Shown here: piece by piece, positions 1 through 64,000 of the stretch | How the letters are laid out: the number at the start of each line of letters is the position of its first letter | Numbering within the stretch: position 1 is the stretch's first letter | NCBI GenBank assembly: GCA_033439265.1 | Contig: JAVTVX010000010.1 | Location: 15,221,490 to 15,285,489, forward strand | DNA: 64,000 bases | Direction of reading: 5' to 3' | Source: Dillenia suffruticosa | Taxonomy: Eukaryota; Streptophyta; Magnoliopsida; Dilleniales; Dilleniaceae | The notes under the pieces: generated by a model | Database searches by the model: none | The model's input: the letters and a program-made list of their open reading frames with translations, nothing else | What the model was told of the DNA's origin: nothing | Program-made: the position numbers and the translations under genes

Positions 1-385
1 GCATTATTAAGATCATCAGAAATACAGTTAAATCTCTTTAAAGCATTATTAAAATTATTTAAAATGCTGTTTGTTTCTTAAAATTTATGCACTTTACCCT
101 TCCATCTCCCTGCCTTAATATTATATTTCGCTTCAATAATATAAATTTCTGATAAGAGAGAATTATATTCGCTCTCAATCCTCTCTCCAACTCAAACATA
201 CACGTTTATTAAATGGACTGAAATTCTCCTGCAGCCGTGTTTGCAAACAAGAGGTCCACCTGTGTTATTTATAGGCTTTGTGACTGTTAGATAAGGACAA
301 AAGGCATGTGAAAACATGAAATTTGTATAATACTTTCTACTCGAACTTCACTTAAAATGTTGATTTTTGTTGTTGTTGGAATCAA
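1..385. other. 3' flank of the NRT2 gene, no gene seen
   Basis: AT-rich sequence lying downstream of the minus-strand NRT2 stop codon. It should hold that gene's 3' UTR and polyadenylation region. I see no open frame of note and no structured RNA here. Confidence 0.6.
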
Positions 386-2146
386 CTAAACATGGTTTGG
401 GGTAGAATTTGGTGGTGTTAGGGCGGAAGCTACCCTCCTGCCACGCTCCGAACGGCTGTTCTCGGCAAACTTGAGACTTGCCTGGTGCATACCCTTTTGC
501 TTCTCCTCTTCATTATACTCATTTCCGTAATAGTATTCTTCATTAGAATTTGTGGCATCCTTTGAAGGAGGAAGGAACATGCTTCCCCATTGTGGGAAGT
601 GAACCAACGTCACTGGAAGAGTACAGCACACAATCATAAGTCCCATATAAGATAGACCATCCGCGGTGGAATACTTTGAGCTCGTGAAAAACACTAGTTG
701 AGTCAATCCAGATCCAAAGTTCCCACCAGCTCCAGTCATGCCAGATATAATGCCCAAAGATCGTCTAGAAATGAAGGGTATGATGCCAAAAGTTGCTCCA
801 CAAGCTGCTTGTGCCCCCACCGAGAATAAGATCATTGCCACAATGGCCGTAGGAAGTGAACTGGCTCGGCCAAGCCAGACGCAGAAGGCACCTCCCATGG
901 TTTGGAGGATCCAGAGAGTCCATAGCCTACCCCTCATGCCAAACCTTCTGGCTGCAAAGTCAGATGCAAACCCACCAAAGGGTCGAGCAACAATGTTGGC
1001 CATACCAAAGGTAGCTGCAATCACTCCAGCTGTGTGCAGCTTTAGATCAAACCTGTTACACCCAAAAACCCTATGGTCAGCTCAATTCTTGAAACTTATG
1101 ATGAAAGCTGAAAGGAAAGAATGATTAGAAACCCTACCTGTCATAGAAATATTCAGCAATGACGTTGTCAGTAGATAATTCAACACCCATAGAATAGCCA
1201 TATAGAAGAACAAAGATCCACGTTCTATAGTTTGTGACAGCATTCCACAGCACCTGAACATAAAGAAAAAGAACATAAGCTAAATCTTTTTATCTGAAAG
1301 TGAGGGTTGGTTTAAGGGAGGATTAAGATAACTAACTTTAGAGAACTTGTCTTTGTTAACTGCACCCTCCTTCTGCAGGGAACTGAGGTTTCCATCTGGT
1401 AAGTCTTGGCCCATGGTCAAGATTATGATCCCCATGATAACATGGAGCCATCCTGGAATGAAAAAGGCAATTCTCCAAGCAGTAAAAGGGGTCGAGCCGC
1501 ATCTACGAATTACTTCATAGAGCACTGGCATAATGAGTTGAGTAGCTCCACCACCCATGTTTCCCCAACCTGCAGCTGTCCCATTCACAAGCCCAATGAT
1601 CTTACTGTTAAACATTGTGCTCATCCAGTACTGACATGACACGAACGTAGCAAGAGAAAATCCAATCATGAATCGGACTGCTATGTATCCAGCAGCATCC
1701 GACACCAATGACATACAAAAGACAGCTGGGGCCGACAACATCAAAAGAAAAGCACACCCGTATCGTGGACCTATTAGGTCACAAACTGCACCCATCACCA
1801 ACCGAGAAAAGATGCTTCCAGAAACAGAAGCTACCCCAGCATTTCCAATATCGCGTTTTGTAAGGTTAAGGTTATCCCGAATGATGGGAACTAAAGGAGC
1901 AGCAGCGAAGGTGGAGACAAAGCAAGTAAAGAAAGAGATCCAAGAGAGGTGAAAAGTTCTCATGTGAGGGTTAGCAAAAGAGAAGATTTTAAAGACTTTG
2001 GCCTTGTGCTCCGAATCAACTGGCAAAGCGAATTTCGCTGTCGTATCTGTAGGAACCATTTGTGATGCGACAGAGAAGGCAAAGGTTTGCTCCTTGCCTG
2101 TTACCCCGTGCATTGAGCTTCCTGGCTCCCCTTCAATATCAGCCAT
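386..2146 (-). CDS. NRT2: High-affinity nitrate transporter NRT2 family (three exons)
   Basis: Plasma-membrane nitrate/proton symporter of the major facilitator superfamily, NNP branch; in plants it usually works with the partner NAR2/NRT3.1. Exons read on the minus strand: 2146-1337, 1253-1138 and 1052-386, joined by GT-AG introns of 83 and 85 bp, giving 530 residues, the usual length. The N-terminus has the family [14 protein letters not shown] block. The MFS loop [13 protein letters not shown] is at residues 118-130, and the NNP signature [10 protein letters not shown] at 191-200; a second glycine-rich block ([12 protein letters not shown]) is in the C-terminal half. The hydrophilic C-tail ends with a [14 protein letters not shown] sequence, as in NRT2.1/2.4. 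The ATG at 2146 is chosen because it starts the conserved N-terminus; the open frame reaches further only through a TTG. No break was found. The subgroup (2.1/2.2/2.4 rather than 2.5 or 2.7) is by similarity recalled from memory. Confidence 0.96.
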
Positions 2147-2246
2147 TTTTCTCCGTGCCAAATGAAATAGAACTCTGCTGGTTTAAGGGAGTAGAAGAGA
2201 ATACACAAATTTTTTTTTTGTGTGTGTAACTTGTGTAGTAGTACGA

Positions 2247-60865: not shown

Positions 60866-63530
60866 TCATTCGCCTTCATCAGATACTGAGTGATGGTTTC
60901 CAAAAATCCACCATCTTTTCTGTCTCTCAGTCTCAAATGTAGGAACATCTGGATTTCAGCATTAGAAGCAGTTTTATGTCCAAAGTATGTAATTTAGTAC
61001 TTGTAGGAAGTAATCAATTAGAAGTAGCTAGAAAATCTGAACATCATTGTGCACATCCGTCACATTATGATTATTTCCACTTGCAAATACAACTACATGC
61101 ATTAGAGTAGTTTTGATTACCAAAAGGGGATCATACCTCCTTCTGGATATATTGAGTTGTAGTGCACCTCTGCCCAAAAGCTCAAGAAAATCACTGCACA
61201 AAAGGCAAGGATGGTTTGACCGTAGGGAAAGATCTAACAACAAAGGCATGAAAATTCATGTTCTCAAATATGCTGTTCATGGAATATAACTCTACCCTCG
61301 GCCATACAAAGCGAACTCATAGCTTTTTTTCATGCAACTTATATTAAGATACAATATGCAACCTCCCATAAAAGCATAGCAATGCATACAATGAGGACAT
61401 AAATCAAAACCAACACAATCTGTTTGATAGTGCCCTCATTGTAGGAGCTAATGACAAACAAAATATGGAATTTTAACCCATAATTCTCAAATTGGAAACC
61501 ATAACGTACATCCAAAATTGAGAATTCTCAAATCATACCTCGTTTAGACCTTTTGACATTTGGAAGAATCTCAATATAGCAGGTATCCTTGAAAGACGTT
61601 ATGACAAATATCTTAACACCATACTGCATCGGACAAACAAGGTATGAGTTCTAAATGCAATCACAAATTGGCCAGAACGGTAAACTCAAATCCCAATAGT
61701 TAAGACATACAATGTTGATACATCATATTCAAGCCATGAATCACAAGGACTGGAGACTCATTTACAAATTCTATATCTAAATGTCTGCAATAAGATCTAT
61801 TTAAGCAGTGTAATCTATAGCAGCAGAAGTTGGAAAATTTACCCTAAAATTAACTGAAATATAAACTGATAGCTACCATGCATGTCTGCCAGGCATGCCT
61901 AGGGAAAGGGGAAAAACAAACACCAACGACAAGCAAAAGCAATTGAATAACCCTTTCTTGGAGAACCAATTCTCCTACATGAACTCTCATCCCTCTCCAT
62001 CCAAATCTCACTTCAAATGTATTATATACATAAGAGACGGTTGATGTAATTGTCAAACTGCCACAGTTCAAGAGATTAACTCCAAATAAACTTAGAGTTG
62101 TGTTATTGAACCTTTTTTAGGCTTTATGTGATCTTTTGCTTTCAGAATACCAATATAGCATCTCGGGGGTCTGTCGAAGGCATTCTGACAGATTTCACAG
62201 CAAATGACAAACCTAAGAGTTTCTCTCTTTAAGGAGAGGCTGTCTCCTTGTTTCTAGGCGATGGTCATACAATTGCAGCAAATATGACTCTAATAAAAGA
62301 CAAATATTCAGTGGCTTACTCCTTAAATATGGCTACACGGTGGACCTGCTAAGTACAAACAAAAGAAAAATGAGAAAATGTTGTGCCTATGTATCCCTCC
62401 TCAACGTGCCAATCATTTTAGATTTGTCTTACCACAAACTAAGCCTTCAGCTTATCATCAGCATTTAAAAAAAGTAAAAAGAAAATCAAAATGAAGAGGT
62501 CTATGAACAGCAGGAATCAAGTGCCTAGAGTAACAATATAAGTATGGAAAGATGTACAAATGCATAAATCTCACATAAACATACTTGTGATAATAAAAGA
62601 AACAAGAAATTGCCGCTGAATCATACCGAATCTGCAGCTGCCTGCAAAGTTACATGATCACCCCATTCACCACTCCTAATTATCATCCATAAGATGGAGT
62701 TGTCAAATTGTCAACTTGTCAAATATACCCAATAGCACTTGACATTCAATTATACAAAGGGAGAGAAAAATACTTGGACATCTTCTTCAAATAGTCACCA
62801 AAAGCCATGGGAACATAGCCCTCATATATCTCTGGGCAAGACTTAAGCTGATCCATCAAAATGTTGCAACATAAGTAACAGCAAAGTCCATGCAAATAAG
62901 CTTCTAAATGACTTTTTGACAAAATGTCAAGCTAATCACCCACAATATTAAAGAGTTTCAACCTGATTTACAACTTCTTGTCGAACAAATTTGTGGTGCT
63001 CAGTAGTGCGATATATTTGATCTGACAGAGCACGAAACTGTAAAAACAGCTAATGAGACATTGGCATGCAAACAGAGCCTTCTGGCACCGTATGGCACTC
63101 CATACGGATTTGCCAAAAAAACTATATGTCACAATTTGAAACAAGCAACAATCTAAACAACAAGCAGAGGTCCAAATTCAAGATAAATGCTTAAACTAGA
63201 TAAAATTTAAGGAAAGAAGGAATATTAAATGCATAACTCAAAAAGCCAAAAATGTGCGAAGTGGCAAACCTGACAGTTACCGTCACCTTGGACCTTGAGC
63301 TCAACCAAATCATATAACTGCAATCTTTAGACAAAGAAAAACGTTCAGCATCAGCTGTTGTCCATATCGCACAAGCTAAAATCTTTACAAAGTATCAAGA
63401 CATACCAAAGAGATGTATAGAGAAAAAAAATAATGTTGAAAGACAACACAAAATACCTGTCCAGTAGCCGTTGATGATCTAATGTTGCTTCATCAACTGA
63501 GGGTATTTCTCCATTGATCCTGGGAACATG
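60866..63530 (-). CDS. OTU9: OTU domain deubiquitinase (OTU9-like), 5' part outside the window
   Basis: Cysteine protease of the ovarian-tumour family that cuts ubiquitin chains. Eight exons on the minus strand: 63530-63457, 63324-63270, 63037-62963, 62847-62774, 62675-62627, 61623-61539, 61193-61137 and 60948-60866, all in phase; 183 residues are in the window. Catalytic Asp and Cys lie in KVQGDGNCQ/FRALSDQIYR, split by an intron; the catalytic His is in FLSFWAEVHYNSIYPEG. Between them stand IYEGYVPMAFGDYLKKMSKS, GEWGDHVTLQAAADS and KIFVITSFKDTCYIEILPNV. The C-tail is RQKRWWIFGNHH, then a short acidic end. The first exon seen begins HVPRINGEIPSVDEATLDHQ, which is mid-protein in this family, so the N-terminal exons lie beyond position 64000 or further inside the flanking intron. 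The choice of OTU9 rather than OTU10-12 rests on the C-tail and is moderately sure. Confidence 0.92.
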
Positions 63531-64000
63531 CTGCACATAGAAACAGCAAGAAATTGGGAACCATCAGATATTCAAGACCGGAATTTCATAGCTAGATGAA
63601 GGATCCAAAGATCCCAGTTTAAGATGCCAATGCAAATAGAGACACATGTCAATATGAACATCAAGGATTTGTGAGAGACAGACAGTTTCACATAGAAGCC
63701 ACACAAGTTCAAGGAACTTTCTCATATTAAATCAGCAATTCAAATTTTTGAATATTTTGGCATCCACAAGTATGTTAACTCATTATACAGCTCCCCACCC
63801 CACCTCGCATCCACACAGAAAGGGAGGAGAAAAAAAGGGAACAGCATATCAATTTTGTCTCGAGATGGCACAAAGCAACGTGGGCTTCTCAAACCACCGA
63901 TATTTGCCAAAAAGAAGCTTGACGTGTACTTCTGTATACAAGCAATTCGCTTCTAACTCCACAATCCTAAGCTCCTGCAATCACTTACTGAAATGAACCA
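63531..64000 (-). other. Intron of the OTU gene running to the window edge
   Basis: Sequence upstream of the first OTU exon seen, starting at the acceptor CTATGTGCAG. No further OTU coding exon was recognised in these 470 bases. The plus-strand frame at 63748-63996 is open to the edge but shows nothing recognisable. Confidence 0.6.

Follow-up and report, generated by a model that had tools for sequence, protein, structure and literature searches.

The window analyzed here, a stretch of 64,000 nucleotides from contig JAVTVX010000010.1 of Dillenia suffruticosa, carries from left to right a gene for an NRT2 nitrate transporter (minus strand), KINB3 (minus), a MIR172 precursor (plus), remnants of a PPR gene (plus), a gene resembling both LPA1 and 2-phosphoglycerate kinase (minus; 2PGK below), a CPN60-alpha chaperonin gene (minus), a copy of SETH2/PIGA (plus), a Myb/SANT-like gene (minus), a ycf2 remnant (plus) and an OTU gene (minus) (Table 1). 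A preliminary description had named NRT2, KINB3, MIR172, PPR, LPA1-like, CPN60-alpha, SETH2 and OTU as standing together in this stretch, and domain and Rfam matches bear this out. The G+C content ranges from 26 to 42% across the 64 kb in 2 kb steps, and the gene structure is plant-like and nuclear. We propose, with a probability of about 0.82, that the window represents part of an ancestral eudicot block that was multiplied and then thinned in Arabidopsis, with AT1G07-08 as the most likely fourth copy, and that the block is being thinned here too.

Table 1. Features of the window, with positions numbered from its first nucleotide.
Feature	Position	Strand	Details
NRT2 high-affinity nitrate transporter gene	386-2146	-	3 exons (2146-1337, 1253-1138, 1052-386), 530 aa, intact; splice model, Pfam MFS_1
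KINB3 (SnRK1 beta3-type subunit), last exon	4143-4469	-	Pfam AMPKBI 2.2e-26; acceptor site before 4469
MIR172 precursor	21536-21663	+	Rfam RF00452, 92 bits, E 1.9e-19; mature miR172 (21 nt) at 21633-21653
PPR pseudogene	about 29524-30550	+	PPR similarity over frames 1, 0, then 1; in-frame stops; pieces 29897-30073 (frame 1), 30034-30207 (frame 0), 30173-30340 and 30344-30550 (frame 1)
LPA1-like/2-phosphoglycerate-kinase-like gene	33064-38966	-	7 exons, 739 aa, intact (splice model); Pfam AAA_18
CPN60-alpha-type plastid chaperonin gene	48364-52154	-	8 exons, 576 aa, intact; second exon start uncertain; splice model
SETH2/PIGA gene copy, disrupted	52956-about 56085	+	Pfam PIGA 2.4e-38
In-frame TGA in SETH2 copy	55361-55363	+	
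Reading-frame change in SETH2 copy	55520-55560	+	similarity switches from one frame to another
Myb/SANT-like gene	57319-58303	-	2 exons, 297 aa; Pfam Myb_DNA-bind_3 1.1e-25; splice model
ycf2 (plastid) fragment, diverged	58710-58928	+	Pfam Ycf2 E 9.3e-16; between Myb/SANT and OTU genes
OTU deubiquitinase gene	60866-63527	-	8 exons modeled, 182 aa, 5' end provisional; splice model, Pfam OTU 2.9e-11

The identities of the block genes rest on matches of differing strength. The NRT2 product matches the NCBIfam model of the NarK nitrate/nitrite transporter (TIGR00886) with an E value of 4.7e-89 and 299 bits, 13 bits short of the curated cut-off of 311.7, and no relative of solved structure was found for it at 0.001. 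Introns are present in the dicot NRT2 genes studied in PMC2997785 and absent from the grass ones, and the two introns of the window gene, which agree with a dicot NRT2 of that paper, thus point to a dicot-like host. The LPA1-like product matches the NCBIfam 2-phosphoglycerate kinase model (E 1.2e-45) at 156 bits against a cut-off of 343, and the chaperonin matches NCBIfam GroEL (E 1.8e-219) and Pfam Cpn60_TCP1 (1.1e-74). KINB3, of which the model covers the last exon only, is judged from its sequence to be the short beta3 type, and the chaperonin is assigned on similar grounds to the alpha class with a transit-peptide-like start. A tandem duplication lies within a CPN60-alpha intron (49619-49963), with two repeat families at spacings of 167 and 177 bases and copies 99-100% identical. 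The best solved relative of the OTU product is OTUD5 (7.8e-13), and we take the gene to belong to the OTU9/OTU10 class.

The MIR172 hairpin has a predicted folding energy of -54.5 kcal/mol (z -8.8 against 200 shuffles), and its 21-nucleotide mature sequence is presumably the isoform of Arabidopsis miR172a/b. A weaker match of 73.6 bits on the minus strand was rejected as a second MIR172 gene, since it mirrors the hairpin, and further Rfam matches around MIR172 at a relaxed threshold were only at chance level. Among the matches listed in a search of the literature on MIR172 duplication and microsynteny, no title or abstract opening deals with this locus.

The comparison with Arabidopsis depends on the locus numbers given in the preliminary description; all 12 are present in published papers, and so is the gene identity for 11 of them, At2g28050, which we take to be a PPR gene, being documented there by its place beside miR172a. 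These papers, and those cited below, are drawn on for individual passages and tables. CPN60A1 is At2g28000 (PMC2670834), miR172a lies between At2g28050 and At2g28060 (PMC5466967), MIR172A and MIR172B are At2g28056 and At5g04275 (PMC7853530), and SnRK1 beta3 is At2g28060 (PMC10107491). NRT2.6, NRT2.4 and NRT2.3 are At3g45060, At5g60770 and At5g60780 (PMC2997785), At5g60760 and At3g45090 are the two described 2PGK genes (PMC4844270), SETH2 is At3g45100 (PMC7697755), and OTU9 is At5g04250 (PMC3950621).

The ancestral block would have held NRT2, KINB3, MIR172, PPR, 2PGK/LPA1-like, CPN60-alpha, SETH2 and OTU, and would have been multiplied in the Arabidopsis line by two later whole-genome doublings, beta and then alpha. 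Through loss from the copies, one beta branch would have retained CPN60A1-PPR-MIR172A-KINB3 (AT2G28) and the other NRT2-2PGK-SETH2 (the alpha pair AT3G45 and AT5G60). AT1G07-08, retaining NRT2.1 and NRT2.2, would most likely be the fourth copy, and AT5G04 (OTU9-MIR172B) may either match less strongly or be an older relative, from gamma. The block would now be undergoing thinning in the window species as well, with a dead PPR copy and a disrupted SETH2 copy. We infer the assignment to alpha, beta and gamma partly from gene pairs and not from dated trees. The earlier proposal of one ancestral block duplicated and thinned by Arabidopsis is thus well supported by the loci, their co-location and their order, and needs to be amended in that the window itself has lost or is losing PPR and SETH2.

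Several published links join the Arabidopsis segments to one another. AT2G28 is tied to AT5G60 by TOE1 and TOE2, presumably close paralogs, and by an interval of blackberry Ra03. The two TOE genes are At2g28550 and At5g60120 (PMC7853530), and homologs in the blackberry interval (31-35 Mb) stand in the order AT2G28150, AT2G27990, AT5G60690, AT2G28450, AT5G60410, AT1G01530, AT2G28550, AT5G06600, AT1G49475, AT3G18990 (PMC13232755, Table 3), such that 6 of the 10 genes match AT2G27-28 or AT5G60. Three ties join AT3G45 to AT5G60: the recent-duplicate pair At3g45240 and At5g60550 (PMC2075485, Table 4), the two 2PGK genes, and the similarity of NRT2.6 to NRT2.3, its nearest relative (89% similar) despite their location on different chromosomes. 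The authors call this similarity peculiar (PMC2997785); two segments that arose by duplication would be expected to show it.

The preliminary description missed AT1G07-08, as suggested by NRT2.1/NRT2.2 and by the homologs of a kiwifruit LBD gene. NRT2.1 and NRT2.2 are AT1G08090 and AT1G08100, and together with NRT2.3, NRT2.4 and NRT2.6 they are matched to one poplar group (poplar NRT2.4A-C; PMC2997785); two Arabidopsis genes, AT1G07900 and AT2G28500, tie as the nearest homologs of one kiwifruit LBD gene (PMC13184819). This grouping and co-homology make AT1G07-08 a likely partner of AT2G28, and it is probably the fourth alpha/beta copy. Further pairs between the two segments (Dof, SOSEKI) presumably exist, and a literature search combining the SOSEKI loci with At1g08090 and At5g60690 returned nothing, so that link is not used.

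A reading in which the alpha/beta copies are just the four segments first named, so that AT5G04 completes the set and AT1G08 is unrelated, is unlikely. OTU9 and MIR172B do adjoin (AT5G04250/04275), MIR172A and MIR172B give an identical isoform (PMC7853530), and ZAT5 (AT2G28200) groups in the literature with its close relative ZAT14L (AT5G04390), and also with ZAT14 (AT5G03510) and ZAT15 (AT3G10470). However, At3g10910 and At5g05280 are listed as a recent-duplicate pair (PMC2075485, Table 4), and with ZAT15 in the same ZAT group AT5G04-05 seems already to be paired with AT3G10 by the alpha event; AT2G28500 shares its place as closest homolog of the kiwifruit gene with AT1G07900. Alpha and beta together yield at most four copies, too few to accommodate three alpha pairs in one four-fold set, so one of the pairs, probably AT5G04/AT3G10, should be older (gamma). 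A test of whether the segments arose in the same doublings supports AT3G45-AT5G60 and AT2G28-AT5G60 and gives conflicting results for AT5G04. As a candidate segment of the block, AT5G04 retains its adjoining OTU9 and MIR172B; it shares two genes only, its recent partner appears to be AT3G10, and it need not be a sister from the same doublings.

Two genes of the block are broken in the window. Of five pieces of the PPR remnant that were scanned, four match PPR models at an E value of 0.01 or less, two of these above the curated cut-off, and the piece at 29691-29897 gave no PPR model match in the Pfam scan; a TGA separates the last two pieces, and several breaks fall within about 1 kb. In the SETH2 copy the frame is open through the PIGA domain, and the TGA and the frame change follow. 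Of the two alignments to solved glycosyltransferases that were printed, that of 3fro spans both breaks and that of 5d00 spans the first. Removal of the TGA by splicing was considered and rejected: a GTATGA donor overlaps it, yet the later frame change persists, and exon-skipping past the TGA would likewise leave that change uncured. The intron before the VLPDD exon (55217-55306, plus strand) has an apparent GC-AG junction (GAG|GCAAGC ... CAG|GTTC). Neither the PPR nor the SETH2 copy is a working gene as it stands, and the block is thus not functional in all its genes here. SETH2, which Arabidopsis pollen requires, encodes the GPI-GlcNAc transferase catalytic subunit, and a working copy should therefore exist elsewhere in this genome. 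The disrupted copy thus predicts a second, working SETH2, which would point to duplication in the window species.

We consider it quite improbable that these breaks are assembly errors in an intact block. The sequence comes from a single assembly, and the splice models of NRT2, the LPA1-like gene, CPN60-alpha and Myb/SANT, which total 2,142 codons joined without a break in four genes, were built under a demand for open frames, so that their unbroken state is partly by construction. Even so, open stretches of 300, 295, 231 and 185 codons each lie within a single frame in NRT2, the LPA1-like gene and CPN60, which makes generally poor sequence quality unlikely, and the PPR remnant has several breaks within roughly 1 kb.

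The arrangement of the genes bears on the direction of change. Gene order, compared by locus position and not by gene orientation, is kept up to reversal in both of the segments with at least three gene types (chance 2/24 x 2/6 = 1/36): on chromosome 2 the window order KINB3-MIR172-PPR-CPN60A is reversed in Arabidopsis, and on chromosome 3 the order is NRT2-2PGK-SETH2. Two further segments hold two gene types each and are uninformative on order. Within the short stretches named, the chromosome 2 set (CPN60A, PPR, MIR172, KINB3; A) and the chromosome 3/5 set (NRT2, 2PGK, SETH2; B) have no window gene in common, and in the window they interleave as B A A A B A B, giving 5 runs where an end-to-end fusion gives 2. 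This combination is a sign of two duplicated copies keeping complementary genes and argues against a late end-to-end fusion. A secondary joining of separate segments in this species, with the Arabidopsis arrangement the older, is compatible with the window taken alone; the interleaving, the kept order within both sets, and a similar interleaving of AT2G28 and AT5G60 homologs in the blackberry table leave it very little probability.

The clustering of these families in Arabidopsis was compared with random placement of seven families on a locus-number map (CPN60-alpha with 2 loci, MIR172 5, KINB3 1, NRT2 5 places, 2PGK 2, SETH2 1, OTU 12); PPR and Myb/SANT were left out, the observed count used 6 of the 12 OTU loci, and background values were used for chromosome sizes, the second CPN60-alpha locus and the NRT2.5 locus. 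Cross-family neighbor pairs within 10 loci number 8, against a maximum of 6 in 200,000 random maps, and mixed clusters number 4, a count of at least 4 being reached in 3 of the 200,000. Under this model the Arabidopsis relatives of the window families are clustered in several segments beyond chance. That the shared neighbors merely reflect coincidence among large families, such as OTU, MIR172 and PPR (presumably hundreds of loci), is highly improbable, as the 8 pairs were unreached with PPR left out and KINB3, SETH2, CPN60-alpha and 2PGK entered as one- or two-copy families.

Several points weigh against the ancestral block. Its support rests on published locus numbers and not on direct alignment to a plant genome; only two segments carry at least three gene types; and AT5G04 rests on two genes, OTU9 and MIR172B, with OTU coming from a family of 12. 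The Myb/SANT-like gene has no matched Arabidopsis neighbor among the segments considered, and the domains of neighbors expected near the loci (an ABC transporter beside AT2G28060, and sulfotransferases between AT3G45060 and AT3G45090) are not among the genes found in the window scans. MIR172E is At5g59505 (PMC7853530), about 125 locus steps from AT5G60760, so that, when a larger region is considered, a MIR172 may have been kept on the AT5G60 side, which would weaken the complementarity. The blackberry table is restricted to candidate flowering genes, and 4 of the 10 correspond to loci elsewhere; among the sources found, none pairs AT1G07-08 with AT2G28 as alpha partners.

Between the named genes, a search of 143 open frames (at least 58 aa, composition entropy at least 3.6, midpoints outside the named genes) against Pfam, which short exons escape, gave one clear match, to ycf2, and two others that are weak and unlikely (E 0.0035 and 0.0053); no additional synteny anchor was present among these frames. 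The ycf2 fragment represents chloroplast DNA that has entered the nuclear genome. Stretches with no assigned gene lie at about 6-20 kb, which includes the space upstream of MIR172, and at 40-48 kb. A short open frame at 7674-7841 (minus strand) looks by eye like the end of a retroelement protein and has no Pfam match; an 83-base unit is repeated twice at 98% match at 25774-25938, overlapping a GATA-type run; and a dispersed A-rich repeat, possibly a small transposon, has four 108-nt copies at 11541, 12900, 41746 and 47990, the others being 67-71% identical to the 12900 reference.

The window is of interest in that one outgroup stretch links Arabidopsis segments that, in the stretches named, have none of these genes in common, so that their duplication is visible only via the outgroup. 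It also makes the MIR172A neighborhood comparable across plants, and it offers a simple origin for the NRT2.1/2.2, NRT2.3/2.4 and NRT2.6 loci, including the similarity of NRT2.6 and NRT2.3 across chromosomes. There is perhaps an even chance that the main nitrate-uptake genes of Arabidopsis, NRT2.1/2.2 (AT1G08), NRT2.3/2.4 (AT5G60) and NRT2.6 (AT3G45), all arose at this block, from one NRT2 that stood beside KINB3, MIR172, 2PGK and SETH2, and that a second, independent round of this thinning is under way in the window species; SETH2 and PPR, which some Arabidopsis copies have lost, would then be decaying here.

Compared with the Arabidopsis segments themselves, the window resembles AT2G28000-28060 in holding CPN60A1, PPR (presumed), MIR172A and KINB3 in the same order, reversed, and differs in that the Arabidopsis NRT2, 2PGK and SETH2 loci seen are elsewhere. 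It resembles AT3G45060-45100 and AT5G60760-60780 in the order of NRT2 and 2PGK, and the former also in SETH2, whereas KINB3, CPN60A1 and MIR172A are on chromosome 2, MIR172E is distant on chromosome 5, and the chromosome 5 NRT2 is a tandem pair. A microsynteny study reportedly compares NRT2 neighborhoods across plants and may already describe the NRT2 end of the block. The closest parallel is a comparison of Prunus with Arabidopsis, in which several Arabidopsis regions match overlapping Prunus regions, a pattern attributed there to duplication and later gene loss; that paper also cites Simillion et al. on duplicated regions left with no shared genes (PMC2647949). The likeness lies in several Arabidopsis regions being set against one outgroup region; the At2g28, At3g45 and At5g60 loci have 0 occurrences each in the main text of that paper, and the present block is another one. 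Duplication of a block and its subsequent thinning are ordinary plant genome evolution, and the window provides one more example of this well-known phenomenon.

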